Source: an uncultured Eubacteriales bacterium
GTDB lineage: Bacteria; Bacillota; Clostridia; Christensenellales; Aristaeellaceae
DNA: 64,000 nucleotides
Reading direction: 5' to 3'
NCBI GenBank assembly: GCA_902799045.1
Contig: CADBZH010000009.1
Location: 1-64,000 of the forward strand
A model generated the notes under the pieces. It saw only the letters and a list, made by a program, of their open reading frames with translations. It did no database searches and was not told the DNA's origin. How positions within the stretch are numbered: position 1 is the stretch's first letter; every line of letters starts with the position of its first letter. Below, in pieces: positions 6,708-18,360 of this stretch. Made by a program: the position numbers and the translations under genes.

Positions 6708-7139
6708 CTATGCCTTTTCGCAGAGGTATTCCATCGCCCTTTTGTAGCCCTCGAACCCCAGGCCGATGAAGTGGGCCTCGCAGGCCATGCCGGCGTAGGA
6801 GAGGCGGCGGAAGGCCTCGCGGGCGTTCACGTCGCTAAGGTGCACTTCCACGGCGGGCAGCTGCACGGCCTTCAGCGCGTCGAGTATGGCCACCGACGTG
6901 TGGGTGTAGGCCGCGGGGTTGATGACGATGCCCTCGGTGCCGTCAAAGTAGGCCTGCTGGATGCGGTCGACGATCGCGCCCTCGTGGTTGGACTGGTACA
7001 GCTCCACCTCCGCGCCCAGCCTTTCCGCCTCCGCGCGGATATAGCGGCACAGCGCGTCGTAGTCGCGGTCGCCGTAGATCTGCCTTTCCCGGATCCCCAG
7101 CATGTTGAGGTTCGGCCCGTTAATGACCAGCAGCTTCAT
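6708..7139 (-). CDS. aroQ: Type II 3-dehydroquinate dehydratase
   Basis: 143 aa, full length for the small type II enzyme. It converts 3-dehydroquinate to 3-dehydroshikimate. Diagnostic features: LVINGPNLNMLGIRE at residues 3-17 including the active-site loop, a Tyr in QIYGDRDYD, GIVINPAAYTHTS (~76-88) and VEVHLSDVNARE (~97-108). It is the last gene of the aromatic operon. Its ATG lies inside the 3' end of the aroE-aroK fusion (20-bp overlap), which suggests translational coupling. Confidence 0.95.
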   Translation of the reverse strand: MKLLVINGPNLNMLGIRERQIYGDRDYDALCRYIRAEAERLGAEVELYQSNHEGAIVDRIQQAYFDGTEGIVINPAAYTHTSVAILDALKAVQLPAVEVHLSDVNAREAFRRLSYAGMACEAHFIGLGFEGYKRAMEYLCEKA

Positions 7140-8364
7140 AAAACGCCTCCCTTGCCGCCTGAACGGTTCGTTCGAAGGCGGCGTTGTTGTCGATGACCGC
7201 GTCCGCGACGCGAAGGTAGCGGGGCCCGCGCGCCTCCCACATGGCTTGAAGCGCCTCGCGGGACTTTGAAAGCGGCCTTCCGTCCATGGGCAGCGCGTCC
7301 AGATCGCGCCTCAGCAGCAGCACCGCGCCGTTCTGGCGCAGCGCGCGCACGTTTGCCTCCCGGAGGATCGCGCCGCCGCCGGTGGCGATCACCGCGCCCT
7401 TTTCCCGGCCCAAATCCGCGATCACTTCCGACTCCAGCGCCCGGAACGCGGCCTCGCCCTCGTCGGCAAAGATCGCGGGGATGGCCTTGCCCGCGCGGCG
7501 CTCGATTTCGCCGTCGCAGTCCACAAAGGGCCGATCCATCGCTGCCGCCAGCGCCTTGCCGACGCTGCTTTTGCCGCTGCCGGGCATGCCGATCAGCACC
7601 AGGTTCAGCGATTCGCCGCGCAGCTGGCGGTAGATGCGCGCCGTTTCCGTCTCGGGGATGGGCTTTCCGGTGAACAGCTCCGCCGCCTCCCGCGCCTGGC
7701 CGACGAGCATGTACAGCCCGCCCGCGCAGGGCAGCCCCCGGGCTTCGGCGTCGAGGATCAGCGCGGTCCTGTCCGGGTTGTAGATCACGTCCAGCGCTCC
7801 GGTGAGCTTCCCGAGCCTTTCGATTTCCACGGCCCTGCCGCCGTTTTTCGGGTACATGCCCACCGGCGTGGTGTTGATCAGCACCTCGGCGCCGGCATGA
7901 TCGCGGTAGAGGGCGTCGTAATCCACCGGCCCCCTGCGGGAGACGACCACGATCTCCCGCGCCCCCAGCCGTCGGCAGGCCGCCTGCGCCGTCAGCGAGG
8001 TGCCGCCGCTGCCGAGGATCACGGCCTTTTTCCCGGTGATCTCCACCCCCGCGCGCCTTGCCAGGGCGATGAAGCCGCCGATGTCGGTGTTGTGGCCGTA
8101 GAGGCTGCCGTCCTCCCGGCGGACGACGGTGTTCACGCTGCCCACCTCGCGGGCCGTGTCGGACAGCGCGTCGCACAGCCGCAGCGCCAGCTGCTTGTAG
8201 GGGATGGTGACGTTCAGCCCCTTGAACGCGCGGCGGCGCATCAGTTCTTCAAACGCCGCCTCCGTGCGCTCGTAGAGCCGGTAGTCGTAGTCGCCCAGCT
8301 GGGCGTGGATGGGCACCGAGTAGCTGTGCCCCAGCTTTTCGCCGATCAGACCGTATTCCATCAT
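7120..8364 (-). CDS. aroE-aroK: Shikimate dehydrogenase - shikimate kinase fusion
   Basis: 414 aa. Residues 1 to ~255 are shikimate dehydrogenase: KLGHSYS substrate site, NVTIPYK with the catalytic Lys, GHNTD with the catalytic Asp, GSGGTS NADP loop and NTTPVGMYP. From ~265 the chain continues as shikimate kinase: Walker A GMPGSGKSS, FVDCDGEIERRAGK, an EAAFRALESEV lid region and ATGGGA. The two are usually separate proteins. Start chosen at the first of two adjacent ATGs (8364) because GAGGAA lies 7 nt upstream and it clears pheA by 4 bp; any longer frame would overlap pheA and encodes no family sequence. The fused steps, NADPH reduction then phosphorylation, are consecutive, so channelling is conceivable. 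Confidence 0.93.
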   Translation of the reverse strand: MMEYGLIGEKLGHSYSVPIHAQLGDYDYRLYERTEAAFEELMRRRAFKGLNVTIPYKQLALRLCDALSDTAREVGSVNTVVRREDGSLYGHNTDIGGFIALARRAGVEITGKKAVILGSGGTSLTAQAACRRLGAREIVVVSRRGPVDYDALYRDHAGAEVLINTTPVGMYPKNGGRAVEIERLGKLTGALDVIYNPDRTALILDAEARGLPCAGGLYMLVGQAREAAELFTGKPIPETETARIYRQLRGESLNLVLIGMPGSGKSSVGKALAAAMDRPFVDCDGEIERRAGKAIPAIFADEGEAAFRALESEVIADLGREKGAVIATGGGAILREANVRALRQNGAVLLLRRDLDALPMDGRPLSKSREALQAMWEARGPRYLRVADAVIDNNAAFERTVQAAREAFYEAAGH

Positions 8365-8368
8365 CGCG

Positions 8369-9511
8369 CTATTCCTCGTCGTAGCAGCCCAGGAACGTGA
8401 AGTGTTCGCAGTGGCCCTCCAGTTCGCCCAGCAGCCGCACCACGTCCGGGTCGCCGGCGGAAGCCGCCATGTCGAAGAAGAAGCGGAATTCAAACTCCCG
8501 ACCCGGCAGCGGACGGCTCTCCAGCTTCAACAGGTTGACCCCCGCGATGGCCAGCCGCGACACCACGGCGTTCAGCGCGCCGGGCTCGTGCGCCAGGTTC
8601 AGCATCAGCGAGATCTTTCGCGCCTGGGGATAGATCTCCAGCCGCCGGGAGATGCAGATGAAGCGGGTGAAGTTGCTGGCCTGGTTGCTCACGTCGTCCT
8701 CGACGATCTCCAGCCCGTACAGCTCCGCGCAGGCGCGGGAGGCGATCACGGCCAGGTCGTCGCGGTCGCTCTTGGCCACGTATTCGGCGGCGACGGCGGT
8801 GTTTTCCATCGCGGTGGACCGGATTTCGGGGTGGGCCTCCAGGAAGTGGGAGCACTGGCGCAGCGCCTGCTCGTGGGAGACGATCTCGGCGATCGGCGCG
8901 TCGGCCGTGCCGCGCTTTTTCATCAGCCGGTGGTCGATGCGCAGCTTGTGAGCGCCGACGATGTAGAAGTGATGCTTCTCCATCAGGTCGTAGACCTGGG
9001 TGACGGACCCGGCGGTGGAATTCTCGATGGGCAGGATGCCATATTGGCACATGCCCTTTTCCACCGCGCTGAACACGCCGTCGAAGCTGTCGAAGTACAG
9101 GATGTCCGGATAGGGGAACAGGCGCTCGCAGGCCTGCTGGGCATAGGCACCCTCGGTGCCCTGGCAGGCCACCAGCGCGTGCTCCGGCAGGCGCTTGCCG
9201 GTGGTCCCGGCCAGGGCCCGTTCGATCTTCACCGTCAGCGGGCTTTGATAGCGCCATACGGCGGACTGGTAGCTGCGGCTCAGGTCGAAGAGGTGGCTGT
9301 ACAGCGCCTTCACGTAGGGCGCATAGGCGTCGCCCGCCTGGGCGGTGACGCGGTTCAGGATCTCCCGCTCCCGGGCGTGGTCGCGGATGGGCTTGCCGGC
9401 CTGCTGCTTGGCCTCGGCCACCTCCCGGGCACAGTCCATGCGCCGGGTGAACAGCTCGACCAGCTGGTCGTCGAGGGCGTCGATGCTGCCGCGAATGTCT
9501 TTCAGTTCCAT
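8369..9511 (-). CDS. pheA: Bifunctional chorismate mutase/prephenate dehydratase
   Basis: 380 aa in three parts: AroQ-class chorismate mutase helices (residues ~1-85, starting MELKDIRGSIDALDDQLVEL), prephenate dehydratase (~105-285, with CQGTEGAYAQQA and the NSTAGSV loop) and a C-terminal ACT domain (~295-372) carrying the Phe-binding ESRP motif (~330). It makes phenylpyruvate from chorismate; the ACT domain predicts feedback inhibition by Phe. The start at 9511 has AAGGAGG ~7 nt upstream and overlaps the aroC end by 10 bp. Confidence 0.95.
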   Translation of the reverse strand: MELKDIRGSIDALDDQLVELFTRRMDCAREVAEAKQQAGKPIRDHAREREILNRVTAQAGDAYAPYVKALYSHLFDLSRSYQSAVWRYQSPLTVKIERALAGTTGKRLPEHALVACQGTEGAYAQQACERLFPYPDILYFDSFDGVFSAVEKGMCQYGILPIENSTAGSVTQVYDLMEKHHFYIVGAHKLRIDHRLMKKRGTADAPIAEIVSHEQALRQCSHFLEAHPEIRSTAMENTAVAAEYVAKSDRDDLAVIASRACAELYGLEIVEDDVSNQASNFTRFICISRRLEIYPQARKISLMLNLAHEPGALNAVVSRLAIAGVNLLKLESRPLPGREFEFRFFFDMAASAGDPDVVRLLGELEGHCEHFTFLGCYDEE

Positions 9512-10599
9512 GATTCTGCCTCCTTGCCGGATTCGATCAGCATGTCGAGCACGGTGCACGCCACCGCCGCCTCCACGACGGGCACGGCGCGGGGCACGAC
9601 GCAGGGGTCGTGGCGACCGCGCACGGCCAGCTCCGCGTCCTCCCCGCCGGAGAGGGACACCGAGCGCTGGGCCTGGCCGATGGAGGGCGTGGGCTTGAAC
9701 GCGGCGCGAACCACCAGGGGCATGCCGCTGGTGATGCCGCCGAGGGAGCCGCCGTGGCGGTTGGCTTCGGTGACCACGCGCGCCCCATCCATGCGGAATG
9801 GATCGTTCTGGGCGCTTCCGCGCATATGGGCGGCGGCGAAGCCTGCGCCGAACTCCACGCCCTTCACGGCGGGGATGCCGAACAGCGCCCAGGCGACCCG
9901 GTTCTCCACGCCGTCGAACATCGGCGCGCCGAGGCCCACGGGAAGGCCCGTGGCGAAGCACTCCACGATGCCGCCCACGGAATCGCCCTCGGCCCTGGCC
10001 GCGAGGATGGCTTCCTCCATCTTCTTTGCCGCTTCGGCGTCCAGACAGGGCAGGCCCTCGGCGGCGATGGCGTCCAGCGGCGGGCGCGCGAAGTCGGCGG
10101 GGGCGTCCCCGATGCCCGCGATGGCGGCGATCCGGGCCTTCACGCGAATGCCCCTGCGCTCAAGCAGCTGTAGCGCCAGCGCGCCGGCGAAGCACAGCGG
10201 CGCGGTGAGCCGCCCGGAAAACTGCCCGCCGCCGCGGATGTCGTTGTGGCCGGAGAACTTCGCCCAGGCGGTGAAATCCGCGTGGCCGGGGCGGGGGACG
10301 TCCCGCAGGGCGTCGTAGTCCTGGCTGCGGGGGTTGCTGTTTTCGATCACGGCGCACAGCGGCGCGCCGCAGGTCTCCCCGCGCTCGTTCAGGCCGGAGA
10401 GGATCGTCGGGGCATCCGCCTCCCGGCGGGGGGTGGAAAGGGCGCTCGCGCCGGGCGCCCGCCGCGCCATGAACGCCGCGACGGCTTCCATGTCCGGCAC
10501 AAAGCCCGCCGGAAGCCCTTCGATCACCGCGCCGATCATCGGCGAGTGGCTCTGGCCGAAGATCGTCACGCGAAAGCTATTGCCCAGGGTGTTCGACAT
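9502..10599 (-). CDS. aroC: Chorismate synthase
   Basis: 365 aa. Signature segments of the FMN-dependent chorismate synthase family are at the N-terminus (TLGNSFRVTIFGQSHSPMIG), followed by RPGHADFTAWAKF, IRGGGQFSGRLTA and later GGSLGGITSGMPLVVRAAF. It converts EPSP to chorismate, the branch point for Phe, Tyr and Trp. It overlaps aroA by 23 bp upstream and pheA by 10 bp downstream, consistent with a tightly coupled operon. Confidence 0.96.
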   Translation of the reverse strand: MSNTLGNSFRVTIFGQSHSPMIGAVIEGLPAGFVPDMEAVAAFMARRAPGASALSTPRREADAPTILSGLNERGETCGAPLCAVIENSNPRSQDYDALRDVPRPGHADFTAWAKFSGHNDIRGGGQFSGRLTAPLCFAGALALQLLERRGIRVKARIAAIAGIGDAPADFARPPLDAIAAEGLPCLDAEAAKKMEEAILAARAEGDSVGGIVECFATGLPVGLGAPMFDGVENRVAWALFGIPAVKGVEFGAGFAAAHMRGSAQNDPFRMDGARVVTEANRHGGSLGGITSGMPLVVRAAFKPTPSIGQAQRSVSLSGGEDAELAVRGRHDPCVVPRAVPVVEAAVACTVLDMLIESGKEAESWN

Positions 10600-11794
10600 G
10601 CAGCGTCCCTCCCAATTCGGTGAAATCCCGGAAGAAATCCGGGTAGGATTTTGCGACGGCCCCGATGCCCTTCACGCGCACGGGCCGGTCGGCGAACGCG
10701 GCGGCGACGGCGGCGGCCATCACGATGCGGTGGTCGTTCGCGCCGTCCACCTCGCGCACGGGCGCTTCGCAGGGCGCGGGCGGGCCGCCCTCGATGACGA
10801 GCCCGTCGTCGGTGATTTCGCAGCGGTGGCCCAGCGCGCGGAGCATCGCAGCGGTGGTCGCCAGGCGGTCGCTCTCCTTCAGCCGAAGCCGCGCCGCGCC
10901 GGTGATGACCGTGCGCTGATCCCGGTTCGCCGCGGCGACGGCCAGCGCGGGCACCAGGTCCGGCACGTGCCGGGCGTCGATCTCCGCCCGCCCCAGCAGG
11001 TCGCGAATCGCGCGGTCGCCCTGGGCGGTGTCCTCCCGGAGGCCGTCCACGCGAACATCGCCGCCGAGGGCGTTCGCCGCCAGCCAGAATGCCGCCGCGG
11101 ACCAGTCGCCCTCCACCGCGATTGCGCCGGGGGAGCGATAGCGCTGCCCGCCGGGAACGCGCCAGCCTGCACAGGTGGGAAGGGCCTCGACGCCGAATTG
11201 CCGAAGCGCCGCGAGCGTCATGTCCACGTAGGCGGCGGAGGCCAGCTTCGTGGTGAGGACGATCTCGCTGTCCTCCTTCAAGAGCGGCAGCGCGAACAGC
11301 AGGCCGGTGACGTACTGGCTGGACACGTCCCCGGGCAATTCCCAGCGCCCGCCGGCAATTGGGCCGGAGAGGGCCATCGGCAGGCAGTCGGAATCGACGG
11401 ACGCGCCGTGCGCCCGCAGCGCCTGCGTCAGCGCCCCGTTGGGCCTCTCGGGCAGCCTGCCGTGACCGGCGACGCGGGCGCTTATTCCCAGCGCGCAGAC
11501 GATCGGCAGCAGGAACCGCAGCGTGGAGCCGCTCTCGCCGCAGTCCAATTCGGCGCGCTCGTTGGCGCGGGCGATGGGAGAAACCGCAAGGCCGCTGTCC
11601 GTGGCGCGAATCCCGGCCCCCAGCGCGTTCAGGCAGGCCAGGGTGGCCTCGATGTCCCGGTTCAGCGCGCCGATGCGGATGACCGTCGGGCCGTCCGACA
11701 GCGCCGCGGCGATCAGGGCCCGGTGGGCGGCGGACTTCGACGCGGGCGCCCGCACGCTTCCGGAGAGCCTGCCCGGGGTGATGACGGCGTTCAT
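10577..11794 (-). CDS. aroA: EPSP synthase (3-phosphoshikimate 1-carboxyvinyltransferase)
   Basis: 405 aa, slightly short of the usual ~425. The two-domain inverse alpha/beta barrel family is recognised by APASKSAAHRALIAAAL (substrate-binding Lys/Ser near residue 18), LDCGESGSTLRFLLPI, QYVTGLLFALPL and RLRLKESDR near 305. It transfers enolpyruvate from PEP to shikimate-3-phosphate. The start overlaps the aroB stop by 4 bp (ATGA), the classic stop-start coupling. Confidence 0.95.
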   Translation of the reverse strand: MNAVITPGRLSGSVRAPASKSAAHRALIAAALSDGPTVIRIGALNRDIEATLACLNALGAGIRATDSGLAVSPIARANERAELDCGESGSTLRFLLPIVCALGISARVAGHGRLPERPNGALTQALRAHGASVDSDCLPMALSGPIAGGRWELPGDVSSQYVTGLLFALPLLKEDSEIVLTTKLASAAYVDMTLAALRQFGVEALPTCAGWRVPGGQRYRSPGAIAVEGDWSAAAFWLAANALGGDVRVDGLREDTAQGDRAIRDLLGRAEIDARHVPDLVPALAVAAANRDQRTVITGAARLRLKESDRLATTAAMLRALGHRCEITDDGLVIEGGPPAPCEAPVREVDGANDHRIVMAAAVAAAFADRPVRVKGIGAVAKSYPDFFRDFTELGGTLHVEHPGQ

Positions 11795-12855
11795 AGGTCC
11801 AGCGCCTCCAGCGCGTTCAGGGCCTTTTCAAAGCAGGCGGGCAGGCGCGAGACGGGGATCCTTTCCAGACGGCACTTTCCGATGGCCTCCGGCAGCACCA
11901 GCGTGATCTCGCCCCCGGCGCGCTTCTTGTCGTTCAGGGCCGCCCGGGCCAGCTCCTCCGCGCCGAAGCGGCAGCGGGTGGGCAGGCCGTTGGTCTTCAG
12001 GCAATCGGCCAGGCGGCGCAGCATGGCCTCGGGGCAGTCCGCCGCCGCGGCGGCCATCAGTGTGCCGATGCCCACGGCCTGGCCGTGCAGGATCTGAAGG
12101 CTCGAGCAGACCTCGATGGCGTGGCCGAAGGTGTGGCCCAGGTTCAAGAACGCGCGGCTGCCGGTGTCGAATTCGTCGCCGGCCACCACGTCGCGCTTGT
12201 AGGCCACGCACCGCGCCACCACCTCGTCGATCCGCTCCTGCCAGTCGCCGCGCTCCAGCAGCGCGAACAGCGCCGGGTCCTCCAGCACGCCGCACTTGAT
12301 CGCCTCCGCCGCGCCGTTGGAAAGCTGCTCCTTTGGCAGCTCGCGCAGCACGTCGGTGTCCGTGATGACGAGGCTCGGCTGGTGGAACGCGCCGACCATG
12401 TTCTTGCCGAAGGGCATGTCCACGGCGGTCTTGCCGCCCACGGAGGAATCCACCGCCGCCAGCAGCGTGGTGGGCACCTGCACGAAGCGCACGCCCCGGG
12501 CGTAGATCGCCGCGGCGAAGCCCGCCATGTCGCCGGTCACGCCGCCGCCCAGGGCCACCACCAGGTCGCTCCTGGACAGCCTGGCCTCGCCCATGGCGTT
12601 CAAAAGGTCCCGGAGCGTATCCAGGTTCTTGCTGGCCTCTCCGGCCGGGAAGGCGAAGCGATCGACCTCGAAGCCGGAATAGGTGAAGCTGATCTGCGCC
12701 CGGTCGCCGTAGAGCTCGTCCACGGTGTCGTCGGAGACCAGCATGCACCGGCAGGGCTTGACCGCCTTGCGCGTCAGCTCGCCGGACTTGTCCAGCAGGC
12801 CCTCGCCGATCAGAACGTCGTATTCATGGGAAGTGGGGATGTGGATGGTGCGCAT
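11791..12855 (-). CDS. aroB: 3-Dehydroquinate synthase
   Basis: 354 aa, normal length. Contains FPAGEASKNLDTLRDLLNAM, the NAD-binding ALGGGVTGDMAGFAAAIYARG, VPTTLLAAVDSSVGGKTAVD and the zinc-ligand region LNLGHTFGHAIE. It cyclises DAHP to 3-dehydroquinate, the second step of the shikimate pathway. It sits just after the GNAT gene (6-bp gap) and overlaps aroA, so the order from here to aroQ is uninterrupted. Confidence 0.96.
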   Translation of the reverse strand: MRTIHIPTSHEYDVLIGEGLLDKSGELTRKAVKPCRCMLVSDDTVDELYGDRAQISFTYSGFEVDRFAFPAGEASKNLDTLRDLLNAMGEARLSRSDLVVALGGGVTGDMAGFAAAIYARGVRFVQVPTTLLAAVDSSVGGKTAVDMPFGKNMVGAFHQPSLVITDTDVLRELPKEQLSNGAAEAIKCGVLEDPALFALLERGDWQERIDEVVARCVAYKRDVVAGDEFDTGSRAFLNLGHTFGHAIEVCSSLQILHGQAVGIGTLMAAAAADCPEAMLRRLADCLKTNGLPTRCRFGAEELARAALNDKKRAGGEITLVLPEAIGKCRLERIPVSRLPACFEKALNALEALDL

Positions 12856-12861
12856 GATGAC

Positions 12862-13338
12862 TCAGACCTCCAGTTCCATGTACCTGCGATAGGTGGTGAA
12901 GCCCGCGGCCTCGTAGAAGGCCAGGGCGGAATCGTTGAAGGCCCAGACGTCCAGGTCCAGGCGGGTGAAGCCGCGCGTCTTCGCGTCGGCCTTCATGTAT
13001 TCCACCAGCGCGGTGGCGACGCCCCGGCGGCGGAAGGCGGCGTCCACGCCGAACTCCTCCAGGTGATAGAAGTCCAGCGGCAGGGTGTAGGGGCTCTCGG
13101 GCCGGTGGACGTACTGCACCGTGGCAAAGCCCGCGACTTCGCCGTCGACCGCGGCCACCAGCACGTCGGACTCGTCCGCTTCAAATCGTTCGTACAGATG
13201 GCCCTGCAGTTCCGCGTTGAACCCCGGCCGGAAGTGGGCGGGGCGGCCCGCCACGTGCAGGTCGTTCACCATGCGGCGCAATTCGTTCACGCGCTCCAAT
13301 TCTTCCCGCTTTGCGGGACGGACTTCGATCATTGACAT
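12862..13338 (-). CDS. GNAT-family N-acetyltransferase inside the aromatic operon
   Basis: 158 aa single GNAT domain. The acetyl-CoA loop is GVDAAFRRRGVATALVEYMK (R/QxxGxG/A type, ~residues 98-117), followed by DLDVWAFNDSALAFYEAAGF typical of the fold's last helix. Start set at 13338 because AAGGAGG lies 8 nt upstream; upstream codons are repeat sequence. It is the first gene after a 228-bp repeat-filled gap and the last before aroB. The acceptor is unknown: a small amine, an aminoacyl compound or a protein. Confidence 0.85.
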   Translation of the reverse strand: MSMIEVRPAKREELERVNELRRMVNDLHVAGRPAHFRPGFNAELQGHLYERFEADESDVLVAAVDGEVAGFATVQYVHRPESPYTLPLDFYHLEEFGVDAAFRRRGVATALVEYMKADAKTRGFTRLDLDVWAFNDSALAFYEAAGFTTYRRYMELEV

Positions 13339-13566
13339 GGGGGAGGCCTCCTTTTTGGGAAGTTGGGAGTGAGGAGTCAGGAGTAGGGAGTGAGGATTTG
13401 CTTGATTGAGGGGAAGCGGGTTGCCACGGCCAGCGGCCTCGCAGCGACGCGGCACAGTGCGGAGCTTGCCTTGCTGAAGGAATGGAAGACAGGACCAGAA
13501 CGAATGTCATTGCGAGGAGGGCGCAAGCCCGACATGACAATCCGGAACTCCTCACTTCCCTCGCCT
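13339..13566. repeat. Repeat-filled gap between tyrA and the GNAT gene
   Basis: Holds a purine-rich block of repeated GGGAGTGAGGAGT-type units (about 13357-13399), a family A copy (13505-13548), and a complementary AACTCCTCACTTCCC at about 13546-13560 that could pair with the first block. The GGAGTTGGGAGTGAGGAGT pattern reappears, reversed, at 21365-21397. Confidence 0.65.
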
Positions 13567-14397
13567 TCAGTCCAGCGCTTCCTTGGCGATCCGGCCTTCG
13601 CGCAGCACGGGCAGCAGGCCCTCCGGGTCGGCGGCGGCCAGGGCGTCGCGATACTCGTTCAGCCGGAGGATCAGATCGTCCAGCGCCGGCAGCAGCAAAT
13701 CGTTGTTCTCCAGGAACAGCTCCGTCCACATCACCTCGTTCATGCGGGCGACGCGGGTCATGTCCAGGAAGCTGCCGGCGGAGAAGCCCTTGTGGTCCCT
13801 GGCCAGCGGGTTTTTGATGTACGCGCCGGAGACGATGTGGGCCAGCTGGCTGGTGTAGGCGATCATCTGGTCGTGGGCCTCGGGCGTGCAGAAGCGTACC
13901 AGCTTGAAGCCCATCTCCAGGAAGAAGGCCTTGGCCGACTCGCGGGCCTCGATGGAGGCCTCGGGCGGGGGACAGAGGATCATCGACGCGTTGTCAAACA
14001 GGTCCGCGCGGGCGGCGGCGAAGCCGGAGAACTCGCGCCCGGCCATTGGGTGCCCGCCGATATAGGTCCAGCAGCGCTCGGCGGCGAGCGGCGCCACGCG
14101 GTCGTACACCACGCGCTTGACGCCCGCACAGTCCACCACCAGGGCGTTTTTGCCGAACCGGTCGGCGTGGGCCTCGATCCACTCGGCGCACAGCGCGGGG
14201 AACAGGCTCACCAGCACGATGTCGCAGCCGGGCAGCTGGTCCTCCGTCAGGTCGTCGTGGATGGCCTCCACCGCCTTGGCGCGCAGCATCACCTGCGGGT
14301 CGATGTCATAGCCGAACACGGTATGCTCCGTGTGGCGGCGGATGCTCATGGCCAGGGACCCGCCGATGAGGCCGAGGCCGATGATGGCGATTTTCAT
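13567..14397 (-). CDS. tyrA: Prephenate dehydrogenase
   Basis: 276 aa. N-terminal Rossmann fold with KIAIIGLGLIGGSLA (residues 2-16). The prephenate-binding helix region contains GGHPMAGREFSGF (His ~120) and, further on, MIAYTSQLAHIVSGAYI. It oxidatively decarboxylates prephenate to 4-hydroxyphenylpyruvate, the Tyr precursor. No ACT domain follows the catalytic part, unlike longer TyrA proteins, so Tyr feedback may act elsewhere, for example through the operon's attenuator. It lies 70 bp after the DAHP synthase gene. Confidence 0.93.
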   Translation of the reverse strand: MKIAIIGLGLIGGSLAMSIRRHTEHTVFGYDIDPQVMLRAKAVEAIHDDLTEDQLPGCDIVLVSLFPALCAEWIEAHADRFGKNALVVDCAGVKRVVYDRVAPLAAERCWTYIGGHPMAGREFSGFAAARADLFDNASMILCPPPEASIEARESAKAFFLEMGFKLVRFCTPEAHDQMIAYTSQLAHIVSGAYIKNPLARDHKGFSAGSFLDMTRVARMNEVMWTELFLENNDLLLPALDDLILRLNEYRDALAAADPEGLLPVLREGRIAKEALD

Positions 14398-14467: not shown

Positions 14468-15472
14468 TTACCGCACCCGATACGGCAGCACGTTGCGAAT
14501 CGAAGTCGCCAGCTCGTCGAACTGCTCCGGCGTCAGGCTCTGCTTGCCGTCGCACAGGGCGTGGGGCGGGTCGTTGTGCACCTCGATGATCAGGCCGTCG
14601 GCCCCGGCGACGGTGGCGGCCATGGCCATCGACTTCACCAGGTAGGCGTGGCCGGTGCCGTGGCTCGGGTCCACCACCACCGGCAGGTGGGTCAGCCTGC
14701 GCAGCACCGGCACGGCGGACAGGTCCAGCGTGTTTCGGGTGTAGGTCTCGAAGGTGCGGATGCCGCGCTCGCAGAGGATGACGTTGTTGTTGCCGCCGGC
14801 CATGATGTACTCGGCGCTCATCAGCAGCTCCTCCAGCGTGTTCGCAAGGCCCCGCTTCAGCAGGATCGTCTTGCGGGTCTGGCCCAGCTCCTTCAAAAGC
14901 TCAAAGTTCTGCATGTTCCGGGCGCCCACCTGCACCACGTCTACGTTTTCAAACAGCGGCAGATGCGAGGCCTCCATGATTTCCGTCACGATGGGCAGCC
15001 CGGTGGCCTTCTTGGCCTCCAGCAGCAGCTCCAGGCCCTTCTCGTGCAGGCCCTGGAAGGCGTAGGGCGAGGTGCGGGGCTTGAACGCGCCGCCGCGGAG
15101 CATCCCCGCGCCGCTCTTCTTGACGGACTCGGCCACCGAGATGATCTGCTCCCGCGTCTCCACCGAGCAGGGCCCGGCGATGATCTGGAAGTGGTCCCCG
15201 CCGATGGGCACGCCGCCGCAGTCCACCACGCTGTCGTCCTCGTGGAATTTGCGGTTGGCGCTCTTGAAGGGCTCCTGGATGCGCTTGACGCTCTCGACGA
15301 TGTCCAGCGAGGCGATCAGGTCCATGTCCACGCGGCTGGTGTCGCCGATCAGGCCGATGATGGTCTGGTGCTGGCCCTTGGAGATGTGCAGGTCAAAGCC
15401 GATGCCCTCCAGCCAGTTCGTCAGGTTCTTCACCTGCTTCTCGTTCACCTTGTCCTTCAGCAGAATAATCAT
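14468..15472 (-). CDS. aroF: DAHP synthase, class I-beta with N-terminal regulatory domain
   Basis: 334 aa. Residues 1 to ~70 form the ferredoxin-like/ACT-like extension typical of the Thermotoga/Bacillus-type enzyme ([20 protein letters not shown]). The TIM barrel follows with [30 protein letters not shown], a [16 protein letters not shown] segment and [12 protein letters not shown]. It condenses PEP and erythrose-4-phosphate, the committed step of aromatic synthesis. The extension usually confers feedback inhibition by Tyr and/or Phe. It is the first structural gene after the leader peptide and attenuator, with GGAAAGGAG just upstream of its ATG. Confidence 0.95.
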
Positions 15473-15503
15473 TTCAGAAGCTCCTTTCCGTCGCCCCGTT
15501 GGA

Positions 15504-15544
15504 TAAAAACTGCGGCCCCGCAGTGAGTTTTACTGCAGGGCCGC
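15504..15544 (-). terminator. Attenuator terminator of the aromatic operon
   Basis: On the transcript GCGGCCCTGCAGU pairs with ACUGCGGGGCCGC (13 bp, one G-U) around a 7-nt loop, followed by AGUUUUU. It lies between the leader peptide and the DAHP synthase gene, so it must be read through for operon expression. The segment at 15529-15537, in the loop and the stem's first arm, can instead pair with 15571-15579 (9 bp with two G-U), forming an antiterminator. Confidence 0.9.
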
Positions 15545-15584
15545 ACCAAGTTTCGCGCTTGAATCGGGTGTACAGCAAAGCTCT

Positions 15585-15641
15585 TTATCTGCGAAAGCCG
15601 ATAAAGTAAAAGTAGTAATAGCTGTACTGGTTGCGCTTCAC
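15585..15641 (-). CDS. Tyr/Phe-rich leader peptide controlling the aromatic operon
   Basis: 18 codons, GTG start at 15641, reading VKRNQYSYYYFYFIGFRR then TAA. Five Tyr and three Phe make 8 of 18 residues, with seven of them within codons 6-13. TTGGAGG lies upstream at good spacing. Behind it are a 9-bp potential antiterminator and a strong terminator, and in front a consensus promoter. The transcript segment 15621-15627, spanning codons 6-7, is the exact complement of 15570-15576 just past the stop codon, giving the expected 1:2 pairing. Ribosome stalling at Tyr or Phe codons would block 1:2, allow 2:3 and open the operon. The arrangement follows the known pheA/trp attenuation logic; the peptide itself I do not recognise as a named family. 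Confidence 0.9.
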   Translation of the reverse strand: MKRNQYSYYYFYFIGFRR

Positions 15642-15681
15642 GTAGGTATCCTCCAAAGGGTTTAATGCTTTAACTGGGTAA

Positions 15682-15710
15682 ATTATAGAACGACGCTCGG
15701 GCTTTGTCAA
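15682..15710 (-). promoter_or_regulatory. Consensus sigma-A promoter of the aromatic operon
   Basis: -35 TTGACA (15705-15710) and -10 TATAAT (15682-15687), both perfect, 17-bp spacer. Predicted start near 15675, about 35 nt before the leader peptide. Confidence 0.9.
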
Positions 15711-15768
15711 TGACCTTTGCCAATTCTTAACGCGAGGCAGGGGTGAGGGCCGCAGCCGCCGACACTTC

Positions 15769-18246
15769 TTAACGCCTCGCTCCCAACTCCTTCGCGATCC
15801 TTTCCGCCACGATCTCCGCGGCCCGGCCCGTCTCTTTGCAGCCGAAGAAATCCAGCACGGCCTTGCAGTTGGCGGGGCCGTCGATGGGCTTTTCCAGCAT
15901 CGCCAGCAGCTTGGCCTCGCTGTGGGCCACCAGCAGCGGCGATTCGTCCGGGTTGAAGTAGAGCCCGCGCTCGGCGATGTAGTCCTCAAGGTCCGGCTCA
16001 TAGAAGATCGTCGGCCGGTTCAGCAGCATGAAGTCGCCGCCGATGGAGGAGTAGTCGGTGATCAGCATGTCGGAGATCAGCAGAAGCCGCGACGGCTCCG
16101 GCCAGGCGCTCACGTCCATCTGCGCGTCGGAGCGGATGCCCCGGGAGTCGATGTGGCCGCGGGTGATGCACACCCACTTCGCGCCAGTGACGCGCTCCAG
16201 CGTCTGTCGCACCTTCTCCAGGCTCAGCCCGGCGTCCTGCACGGAGCCGCTGGTGCCGGTGCGGAAGGTCGGCGCGTACATCAGCACCTTCGTGCCCGGG
16301 CTGATGCCCAGCGCCTCGCGGGTGGCCCGCGCCACCTCCGGCGGGTTTTGCAGCAGTACGTCGTTGCGCGGATAGCCGCATTCCAGGATCTCGCCCTTCA
16401 CCGCGAAGCCGCTGCGATAGACGCCGCTGCCGAACGTGGAGCCGGACACGGCCACATCGATGCGCCTGGCCTCGGCGAGGAAGTAGCGGTTCTTCGGCTC
16501 CAGGTCCAGGCGGACCTTCTTGAAGCCCCGGTCGCCGTGCCAGGTCTGGATGTACAGCTGGTCGGGGAACTTCCGCATCCAGATCTTCATGCCGGCGTTG
16601 GTGACGATGACCTTCGAGGTCGCCATCTCCCGCAGGGTCTTCAGCCCGCCGCGGGGCGCCTTTCGCACGTAGTCCGGGATCTCCGGCGAGGCCATGCCCT
16701 TGCCGCTGAGGCGGAACACCTGCCGGGCCTGGGGCGCGAGGGCGTGCAGCGCCTCGGACACGGCCCGGGGATTGTCGTTGTAGAGCTTGCCGTCGTAGCT
16801 GGTGAAGAACACCTTGTCGCCCTCCACGCCGTACAGCGCGTGGCAGAGCGTCATCCAGGCGCTGAACAGGGGATAGGGCAGCTTCTTCAGCGCGTTCAGC
16901 ACCGTAAACAGCGCCTTGTTGCGCTTGAGCCGCGCCTTCAGCGACAGCTTCGCCGGGGCCTGGACCCGGCGGGCGGGATCGGGCACGCCCTCCGGCACGG
17001 GGATGACGTAGAGTCCCCGCCGGCCCTCGTGCACGGAGTCGATGGCGATATGGTCTCCCGCGCGGTTCCAGCGGGGGTGCAGGTCGCAGCGGCAGTCGCC
17101 CACGTACCTCAGCGGCGAAAACACCCGGGCGACGCGCTGGGCGAGGTTCGCCTCATCGGAGCAGATGAACACCGAGGCCAGTCGCTTGCGGTTGGGATAG
17201 GTGTCGGTGACGACACGCGCGCCGTCCGGCGAGTAGCTGCAATGCCCGTCCGTGCGCAGCTCGGGCCAGAGCAGCCGGTATTCCCGGCTCTGGTCCTTCA
17301 TCAGGTAGTAGTGGTCGTCGGTGGCGGCCTTGCGCAGGAACGACAGGATCTCACCGTCGTTTTTCCAGTAGCTGTGGGAGGCGAAGCCGTCGTCGCTGAG
17401 GTTGTAGAGCCCCGTGCCGTCGGTGTTCGCGGTCACCAGCCGCGTGTGCTTCCGCCCGCCCTTGAACCAGCGGTGCAGCACCATGAAGCGGGTGCCGGAG
17501 GGGTTGATCATCAGGTGGTTCACCTTGTGCTCGGCCCCGTCCATGCTGGGATCGGGCTCGAAGGCGGCGAAGTCGGTGTATTTGAGCAGCGGCGTCACCC
17601 GCCCGTCCGCCAGCTCCATCCGCCAGATGCAGGGCGCGTCGGGGCAGAGCCGGCCCTTCGAGGCGTCCGGCAGGTTGGAATAGCCGTAGCCGGGGCGCAT
17701 GCGGTGCAGGCGGCTGAAATCCAGCGACAGGGCAAAGCGCCCGTCCTTCGACACGTCGTACACCGGCATCGGCAGCGTGCGTACCTCCCGGAAGGTGTCG
17801 GCGTCGAAGATCACCGAGCAATACCGGCCGTCCCGGAAGTCGTTGAACAGGATGTAACGGCTGAAATCCGGCCCGAGCCACTGGGCCATGCAGCCCTGCT
17901 GCACGTTCCAGGCGCGTACGGCGGCGATGGTGCACGTCTGGCCGCTTTCGGCGTCGATCAGCACCAGCTCCGCGGCTTCCGCCGGGGCGACGGACTTCCA
18001 GGTGCGCCGGGCCTTCAGGGCGATGATCCGCCGGTCCGCCGCGTCCCAGGGGGACTTGTCATAGTAGCCGAAGTAGTATTCAAAGCCGTCGTCGGGCGTC
18101 ACCCGGCACACGTCGCCTTCATATTGGATCTTCTCGTCCGACAGCGCGTAGCCGATGTACTGATACGCCCGCTTGCCCACCTTCTTCACGAAGGGGAACG
18201 GCTCCAGCACGCGCTTGGCCAGCGATTCGATTTCATGTAAGCCCAT
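15769..18246 (-). CDS. Beta-propeller / CDP-glycerol glycerophosphotransferase-like fusion
   Basis: 825 aa. The C-terminal ~330 residues are a TagB/TagF-type polymerase domain: TWHGDRGFKK (~565), GYPRND (~623), YAPTFRTG, DMLITDYSSIGGDF (~728) and EPDLEDY. Family members transfer glycerol- or ribitol-phosphate from CDP-activated donors to teichoic acid or capsule chains at the cytoplasmic face of the membrane. The first ~440 residues look like a beta-propeller related to oligogalacturonate-lyase/WD40-like proteins (FGYYDKSPWD, SPDGARVVTDTYPN, LHPRWNRAGDHIAIDS). Start at 18246 is preferred because the predicted promoter leaves a ~30-nt leader there; its ribosome site is weak (GGGG, 8 nt away). 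No teichoic-acid genes flank it. Confidence 0.82.
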   Translation of the reverse strand: MGLHEIESLAKRVLEPFPFVKKVGKRAYQYIGYALSDEKIQYEGDVCRVTPDDGFEYYFGYYDKSPWDAADRRIIALKARRTWKSVAPAEAAELVLIDAESGQTCTIAAVRAWNVQQGCMAQWLGPDFSRYILFNDFRDGRYCSVIFDADTFREVRTLPMPVYDVSKDGRFALSLDFSRLHRMRPGYGYSNLPDASKGRLCPDAPCIWRMELADGRVTPLLKYTDFAAFEPDPSMDGAEHKVNHLMINPSGTRFMVLHRWFKGGRKHTRLVTANTDGTGLYNLSDDGFASHSYWKNDGEILSFLRKAATDDHYYLMKDQSREYRLLWPELRTDGHCSYSPDGARVVTDTYPNRKRLASVFICSDEANLAQRVARVFSPLRYVGDCRCDLHPRWNRAGDHIAIDSVHEGRRGLYVIPVPEGVPDPARRVQAPAKLSLKARLKRNKALFTVLNALKKLPYPLFSAWMTLCHALYGVEGDKVFFTSYDGKLYNDNPRAVSEALHALAPQARQVFRLSGKGMASPEIPDYVRKAPRGGLKTLREMATSKVIVTNAGMKIWMRKFPDQLYIQTWHGDRGFKKVRLDLEPKNRYFLAEARRIDVAVSGSTFGSGVYRSGFAVKGEILECGYPRNDVLLQNPPEVARATREALGISPGTKVLMYAPTFRTGTSGSVQDAGLSLEKVRQTLERVTGAKWVCITRGHIDSRGIRSDAQMDVSAWPEPSRLLLISDMLITDYSSIGGDFMLLNRPTIFYEPDLEDYIAERGLYFNPDESPLLVAHSEAKLLAMLEKPIDGPANCKAVLDFFGCKETGRAAEIVAERIAKELGARR

Positions 18247-18286
18247 AACAATAACCCCGTTTGTATTCTCTGCGTGATCCACCATA

Positions 18287-18315
18287 ATGATATATGCTGA
18301 CAGGGAAAAAGTCAA
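18287..18315 (-). promoter_or_regulatory. Promoter of the propeller/TagF-like gene
   Basis: -35 TTGACT (18310-18315), 17-bp spacer, -10 TATCAT (18287-18292). Confidence 0.65.
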
Positions 18316-18360
18316 CCGCCGCGGCTGACCGGTTACCCTCTGTTCCATACGGAACCAGGG

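Follow-up and report, generated by a model that had tools for sequence, protein, structure and literature searches.

A predicted tyrosine/phenylalanine leader-peptide attenuator ahead of the aromatic operon of a clostridial genome, and the recurrence of similar leaders upstream of DAHP synthase genes

The locus considered here raises the question of how an operon for aromatic amino acid synthesis is controlled in an uncultured member of the Clostridia, and whether a short reading frame rich in Tyr and Phe codons acts as its sensor. The control region is compact, is located on the minus strand and is bounded by the end of the upstream gene (15769) and the start of the first operon gene, aroF (15472), of the 64-kb stretch of DNA that was analysed (the window). 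Its main elements are the following, in the direction of transcription.

15682..15710, minus strand: sigma-70-type promoter, TTGACA-17-TATAAT, 12/12 matches
15654-15650, minus strand: GGAGG Shine-Dalgarno (SD) sequence of the leader ORF
15585..15641, minus strand: leader peptide ORF, GTG start, 18 codons plus TAA, VKRNQYSYYYFYFIGFRR, found in 22/22 readable genus members
15511..15545, minus strand: intrinsic terminator, 14-bp stem, U tract to 15505, found by scan and fold

The promoter was both read and scanned, with TTGACA at 15710-15705, a spacer of 17 nt and TATAAT at 15687-15682, and it was the one promoter-like site reported within 15300-16000, where shuffles average 0.2. The original prediction of a perfect consensus promoter followed by an 18-codon peptide with five Tyr and three Phe was thus accurate, the ORF running from the GTG at 15641 to the TAA at 15587-15585. 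The terminator that it described is also present with its U-run, although the stem is one of 14 bp at 15545-15511 with a loop of 7 nt rather than one of 13 bp at 15512-15544; the segment 15504-15550 folds with -29.5 kcal/mol compared to a shuffle mean of -13.8. This stem lies between the leader and the first gene, as in a ribosome-mediated attenuator, and the predicted leader combines the short ORF, the SD and the run of end-product codons of such a system. The rarity of six consecutive Tyr/Phe codons was also considered as evidence and was rejected, with the pattern TWY x6 occurring twice in the same genome against once in the reversed control and 66 times over 28 genus genomes against 94 in the reversed control (summed rows). 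As the run alone is not rare, its significance rests on context and conservation.

Further elements of the leader RNA are defined by the way in which it can pair.

15621..15627, minus strand: region 1 (protector), partner 15570-15576, which a ribosome stalled in the Tyr/Phe run would mask
15583..15606, minus strand: hairpin across the stop codon, 15606-15600 with 15589-15583, from the fold
15570..15583, minus strand: region 2 (antiterminator 5' side), GAGCTTTGCTGTAC, with region 1 or region 3 as partner
15525..15537, minus strand: region 3 (antiterminator 3' side), within the terminator 5' arm and loop

Both alternative pairings that had been claimed were found, pairing 1:2 as an exact match of 7 bp (15627-15621 with 15576-15570) and pairing 2:3 as one of 9 bp including two G-U pairs (15579-15571 with 15537-15529). 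By reading, the latter can be extended by GAG at 15583-15581 with CTC at 15527-15525 past one mismatch.

It is very probable (roughly 0.93) that the element is a stalling-based ribosome-mediated transcription attenuator of the aro operon. RNA polymerase would start near 15675, judging by the promoter, and a ribosome would translate the leader. Under a shortage of Tyr or Phe it would stall in the Tyr/Phe run and cover region 1, upon which 2:3 would pair, the terminator would not form and the operon would be transcribed. With an ample supply of both, a ribosome at the stop codon would cover region 2, the terminator would form and transcription would end before aroF. The switch would thus respond to low levels of charged tRNA-Tyr and tRNA-Phe and control the whole aro operon. 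Anatomy, conservation and geometric fit were computed; we infer stalling, termination and read-through in the cell. The pheL and trpL attenuators of E. coli have three mutually exclusive pairings, with the stop codon between regions 1 and 2. The window element shares with pheL-pheA and trpL-trp the end-product codons, the three pairings and, by prediction, the ribosome as sensor, and differs from them in that theirs is a single amino acid and the genes are others. In the parts of PMC11802643 that were available, these two E. coli systems are described as leader peptides with codons for the end product in which the ribosome is the sensor.

The effect of a stalled ribosome was modelled by folding the nascent RNA with a footprint kept unpaired that reached from 12 nt ahead of the first P-site base to 15 nt behind it, both the footprint and the transcription start site being assumed conventions. 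With A-site codons 6-12 of the window RNA the predicted probability of pairing 2:3 was 0.87-0.90 and that of 1:2 was 0.00, compared to a P(2:3) of 0.25 with the ribosome at the stop. This model is in line with the original proposal that stalling masks region 1 and favours the antiterminator, and under the assumed footprint a stall would mask region 1 and a ribosome at the stop codon region 2. The response is uneven along the leader, the codons modelled beyond codon 12 giving a P(2:3) of 0.25 at Phe13, 0.35 at Ile14, 0.81 at Phe16 and 0.18 at Arg18. It should also be noted that the window RNA without a ribosome prefers 2:3 at equilibrium (0.59 by a looser measure), which counts against the simplest picture.

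The genes behind the terminator were assigned by comparison with curated protein models.

14468..15472, minus strand: aroF, 3-deoxy-7-phosphoheptulonate (DAHP) synthase, first operon gene (NF006421, 486 bits, cut-off 335)
13567..14397, minus strand: tyrA, prephenate dehydrogenase, family assignment only (PRK08507, 160 bits, below the curated cut-off of 295)
12862-13455, minus strand: GNAT-type acetyltransferase-like frame between tyrA and aroB (below all curated cut-offs)
11791..12855, minus strand: aroB (TIGR01357, above cut-off)
10577..11794, minus strand: aroA (TIGR01356, above cut-off)
9502..10599, minus strand: aroC (TIGR00033, above cut-off)
8369..9511, minus strand: pheA, chorismate mutase-prephenate dehydratase (both models below curated cut-offs)
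7120..8361, minus strand: aroE-aroK fusion, shikimate dehydrogenase plus shikimate kinase (both model sets, below curated cut-offs)
6708..7139, minus strand: aroQ, type II 3-dehydroquinate dehydratase, last pathway gene (TIGR01088, 175.5 bits, cut-off 169.85)

A second model supports aroF (TIGR01361, 384 bits, cut-off 268), and for pheA the model matches cover residues 151-530 of the frame 8369-9961, with the ATG at 9511 as its likely start. The gene order is therefore aroF, tyrA, acetyltransferase-like, aroB, aroA, aroC, pheA, aroE-aroK, aroQ, which comprises all shikimate steps together with the Tyr and Phe branches, and the claim of a complete operon is borne out with aroQ included. No Trp enzyme was detected among the nine operon proteins examined. 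From these assignments, the content of the operon would fit the amino acids predicted to be sensed.

To follow the leader beyond the window, regions upstream of DAHP synthase genes were collected in three sets, namely relatives to order level (61 loci), 80 named public loci and the class (109 loci among the matches listed). The relatives set holds 61 of 67 listed DAHP synthase matches, five partial or contig-end matches and one second copy having been left out; regions below 200 nt (one relative, two class) were dropped before leaders were counted, and at L069, L071 and L256 the anchor lies off a start codon. A leader was defined as an ORF of 8-45 codons that has an SD, holds five or more Tyr/Phe in a stretch of ten codons and lies no further than approximately 420 nt from aroF. 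Such SD-preceded leaders were present in 143 of the 247 upstream regions (44/60 relatives, 50/80 named and 49/107 class), although the sets overlap (L072 and L010, for example, are apparently one contig with the same leader) and 247 regions do not equal 247 independent genomes. A comparable ORF was seen in 0.5-0.75% of dinucleotide shuffles of the upstream regions, and any pair of eight other amino acids tested gave at most 12/247. When the SD was not required and at least six Tyr/Phe were demanded, 150/247 regions qualified, compared to 15/1235 shuffles and 10/247 reverse complements. A terminator follows 139/143 leaders (57/286 shuffles) and a promoter-like site with at least 9/12 matches precedes 122/143 (98/715 shuffles). 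The 104 of 247 regions without an SD-preceded leader count against the proposal. Within the class, 27 of the 48 sampled families had at least one leader-positive member, and absence of the peptide from relatives, which had been named beforehand as a refutation, was not what this search or the one within the genus found.

These leaders also bear on which amino acids are sensed. It is probable that the attenuator senses both Tyr and Phe, and less likely that only one of them is sensed (Phe only, as in aroR of Corynebacterium glutamicum, or mainly Tyr) with the codons of the other being passengers. In the available portions of PMC11802643, aroR, with its Phe-Tyr-Phe, is reported to answer to Phe and not to Tyr, and in the leader of the window five of the six Tyr/Phe codons in the A-site range 6-12 encode Tyr. 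Against the sensing of one amino acid, both residues occur in all 143 leaders, with at least two of each in 133/143, and in the window RNA a stall at Phe11 or Phe16 also gives a high P(2:3), of 0.89 and 0.81. Over the 143 leaders, 583 Tyr, 701 Phe and 20 Trp codons were counted among 4118.

Because the sets overlap, 54 non-redundant leaders were used for partner-swap and stalling tests. In the swap test, duplex energies were calculated for each region-2 segment with each terminator arm, and for each leader start with each region-2 segment. A leader's own antiterminator pairing was -3.76 kcal/mol beyond the additive expectation and its own region 1 pairing -9.51 kcal/mol beyond it, with 0/10,000 permutations as low in either case. 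With region 2 shuffled, the excess shrank to between -0.27 and -0.64 kcal/mol for the antiterminator and between -1.62 and -2.18 kcal/mol for region 1; composition is thus a minor part of the effect and complementarity has been kept despite divergence of the sequences. The swap effect is an average, with the own partner in the best 10% in 24/54 (antiterminator) and 37/54 (region 1). Single sequences were also compared with shuffles, one of the 139 terminator-bearing leaders being dropped for having too small a space between core and terminator. At p<=0.05 the antiterminator stood out in 56/138 and region 1 in 90/138; the corresponding counts were 4/23 and 10/23 in the GC-rich genus set, and 52/115 for the antiterminator in leaders outside the genus. 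In the stalling model, a stall in the Tyr/Phe core gave more antiterminator than the stop position in 50/54 leaders (p 4.7e-10) and more than ribosome-free RNA in 39/54. Across families, the mutually exclusive pairings have been kept in evolution, while the genus is not informative in this respect.

Within the genus the leader itself is almost uniform. DAHP synthase matches were obtained in 59 of the 80 genomes searched, the own genome included, and all 22 genus members with a readable aroF start, again with the own genome, have a leader with a Tyr/Phe run. In the alignment of 21 distinct genus rows, pairs 2-6 of pairing 1:2 do not vary, pair 7 holds in all 17 rows that have letters there and pair 1 forms in 14. 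The stop-codon hairpin is paired in 100% of the alignment cells, with variation between U-A and U-G only, and the 9-bp 2:3 helix in 98.4%. No covariation of the stems was detected within the genus, where shuffled columns score equal or better, and this comparison is uninformative because regions 1, 2 and 3 are almost invariant. The covariation that had been suggested as a check was found between lineages, as co-variation of the alternative pairings, and not within the genus. A small hairpin between regions 2 and 3, in which compensation was seen by eye in several rows, was rejected as a further candidate, 65.5% of its cells pairing in fixed columns.

The same alignment bears on another reading, namely a nascent-peptide arrest of the TnaC type, in which the peptide together with free Tyr or Phe as ligand would stall the ribosome and codon decoding would not be the sensor. 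Its core is a nearly pure Tyr/Phe peptide, and Ile-Gly follows the core in 22/22 genus leaders. However, in the six-codon core, where 124/132 codons are Tyr or Phe, the codons switch among TAT, TAC, TTT and TTC so that Tyr and Phe interchange, which appears to suit a sensor of two tRNAs better than a fixed peptide signal. The residues flanking the core vary between families while the codon class and the RNA pairing are kept, and the Ile codon falls inside the conserved stop-codon hairpin. As the peptide is unconserved outside its codon class, an arrest peptide is considered very improbable.

A T-box or another riboswitch binding tRNA or a metabolite, with the ORF being incidental, is less credible still and can practically be set aside. 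The genome does carry T-boxes elsewhere (16 matches, five above the cut-off), and a T-box precedes DAHP synthase in three of 40 class loci negative under the SD rule, in other Clostridia. However, no Rfam element matched at gathering score in the 64-kb window, the T-box covariance model RF00230 gave no match there, and 15440-15720 yielded two chance-level matches to unrelated families at a relaxed threshold. The preference of the original prediction for a leader attenuator over a T-box is upheld by this. The scan for T-boxes covered 40 of the 58 class negatives, of which two (L228 and L265) contain a Tyr/Phe ORF that lacks an SD, and 20 of the 49 class positives, none of which carries a T-box. 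Equally negligible is the reading in which the terminator ends the transcript of the upstream gene (15769-18348), which is on the same strand and ends nearby, and in which the short ORF arose by chance, since that gene is separated from the terminator by a 12/12 promoter and since promoter, leader and terminator are found together repeatedly, as one unit.

Second copies of the attenuator in the genus were sought with a covariance model, which yielded 24 strong matches (E of 2.5e-17 or lower) in 23/28 genus genomes, 22 of the 24 being the training sequences of the model and the other two lying in G021 and G026. The 27 other genus genomes include four that have no aroF match (G001, G015, G021 and G023). 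Of these, G001, G015 and G023 have no good attenuator match either (E 0.145 or none), while in G021 the attenuator sits at the edge of a contig and is followed by the beginning of aroF. G012 and G013, with aroF fragments only, likewise have no good attenuator match. A second copy of the attenuator in G026 (L300, G026:C5:1-4600) is followed by an aroF fragment and the rest of the operon, and is perhaps an assembly or strain-variant piece. Ten regions behind model matches were inspected, six with a full aroF, two with an aroF start at a contig end, one with an aroF fragment and one, in G348, with an aroB-like gene. G348 belongs to another genus of the same family, and there a closely similar attenuator (E 1.2e-19) precedes a run of aroB-, aroA- and aroC-like genes (L305, G348:C5:5700-9500), called by eye from their likeness to the window proteins. 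No aroF was found in this 3.8-kb stretch, and the switch of G348 goes with the pathway operon and not with aroF.

Leaders of this type are not confined to Clostridia. Of 11 named loci outside the Firmicutes by title, five have a Tyr/Phe leader without an SD (Treponemataceae L126, Kiritimatiellae L124, Planctomycetia L116, Thermoguttaceae L100 and Lentisphaerae L125). Two further sets were built from relatives of the genomes of two of these loci, a spirochaete set (16 of 20 loci, without the starting locus and three partial ones) and a Kiritimatiellae set (17 of 20 loci, with the starting locus but without three partial ones), the phylum in each case resting on the MAG title of the starting locus. 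With at least six Tyr/Phe and an SD not required, a leader was present in 10/16 readable upstream regions of the spirochaete set (6/480 shuffles) and in 10/17 of the Kiritimatiellae set (0/510 shuffles); a terminator was found in 19 of these 20 leaders, a count that has no shuffle control. That such leaders recur over many genomes speaks against an origin in single mis-binned contigs. Of the eight spirochaete-set leaders scanned, which are relatives of L126, six have no SD and a -10 box whose end is 6-7 nt from an in-frame ATG downstream (L319, L320, L321, L323, L324 and L325). Leaderless leader-peptide mRNAs are predicted from this arrangement; by comparison, of the 122 SD-preceded leaders that have a promoter-like site, one has it at most 8 nt from the start. 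In themselves, leaderless leader peptides are probably no novelty.

Several known systems resemble the window leader. According to the available parts of PMC11802643 and PMC4046766, aroR precedes the aroF operon of C. glutamicum as a leader with Phe and Tyr codons acting by stalling-dependent attenuation, and is similar in its position ahead of a DAHP synthase gene; it differs in having Phe-Tyr-Phe only, in its reported response to Phe and not Tyr, and in belonging to the Actinobacteria. The uORFC-13-1 motif of Acholeplasma aroF is a candidate uORF with a terminator and a U run coding for at least one Phe, known from 24 sequences of Acholeplasma and environmental DNA, and the accessible text of its source describes no Tyr/Phe run (PMC8632094). 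By these partial descriptions, the likeness of aroR and uORFC-13-1 to the window leader is one of function only. Attenuators with His leaders have been proposed in Firmicutes in place of T-boxes (PMC9413887; for hisS*/hisZ in bacilli, PMC2965389), and as described in the portions available they differ in their histidine codons, their his genes and the few lineages concerned.

These precedents qualify the view that the leader is noteworthy: classical attenuation in Firmicutes had already been proposed for histidine genes, and a Phe-Tyr-Phe leader ahead of a DAHP synthase gene was known in C. glutamicum, as the same partly available sources indicate. The amino-acid leader families of Rfam 15 gave no match at or near gathering score in the window, and seven leaders of relatives (21-44 aa) matched no NCBIfam or Pfam model, so that annotation based on such libraries would miss the leader. 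No description of a Tyr/Phe aro-operon attenuator in Clostridia, or of its spread to spirochaete- and Kiritimatiellae-related genomes and its leaderless forms, was found in open-licence full text, a body of literature that subscription papers are mostly outside of. The predicted mechanism is classical ribosome-mediated attenuation and not a new kind. The earlier observation is confirmed and its interpretation as attenuation is supported, and the locus is, as a well-supported prediction, a switch of an ordinary kind whose combination of sensed amino acids is unusual and whose distribution is wider than expected.

The evidence is evenly poised on a broader proposal, that Tyr/Phe attenuation of DAHP synthase operons forms a single widespread and unnamed family. 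Such a family would be the usual aro control in much of Clostridia (27/48 families) and shared with spirochaete- and Kiritimatiellae-related genomes, including leaderless versions with their own AUG in which the leaderless-initiating ribosome is the sensor. If true, classical attenuation, and not the T-box alone, would be a main form of end-product control in a group known for T-boxes. Whether or not that proposal holds, the predicted attenuator is a mixed Tyr/Phe sensor placed at the committed step of the aromatic pathway common to these amino acids, in Clostridia that, by their record titles, come largely from gut and rumen metagenomes. It provides a direct rule for how such anaerobes may turn on Tyr and Phe synthesis, and the apparent leaderless forms would make it possible to examine attenuation where translation begins at a 5'-terminal AUG.

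Two minor observations were made among the class loci and the clostridial leaders. At L272, L279 and L249 a T-box above the Rfam gathering score lies before DAHP synthase without a Tyr/Phe leader, which hints that the two RNA sensors replace each other at this gene; T-box and leader at one gene would form a natural comparison of two RNA sensors with one job. In five leaders (L238, L239, L254, L260 and L145) the core is followed by a second Tyr/Phe-rich patch of the type GFYFSAGYFCC-K, which possibly reflects conservation of region 2 at the RNA level in these clostridial leaders.
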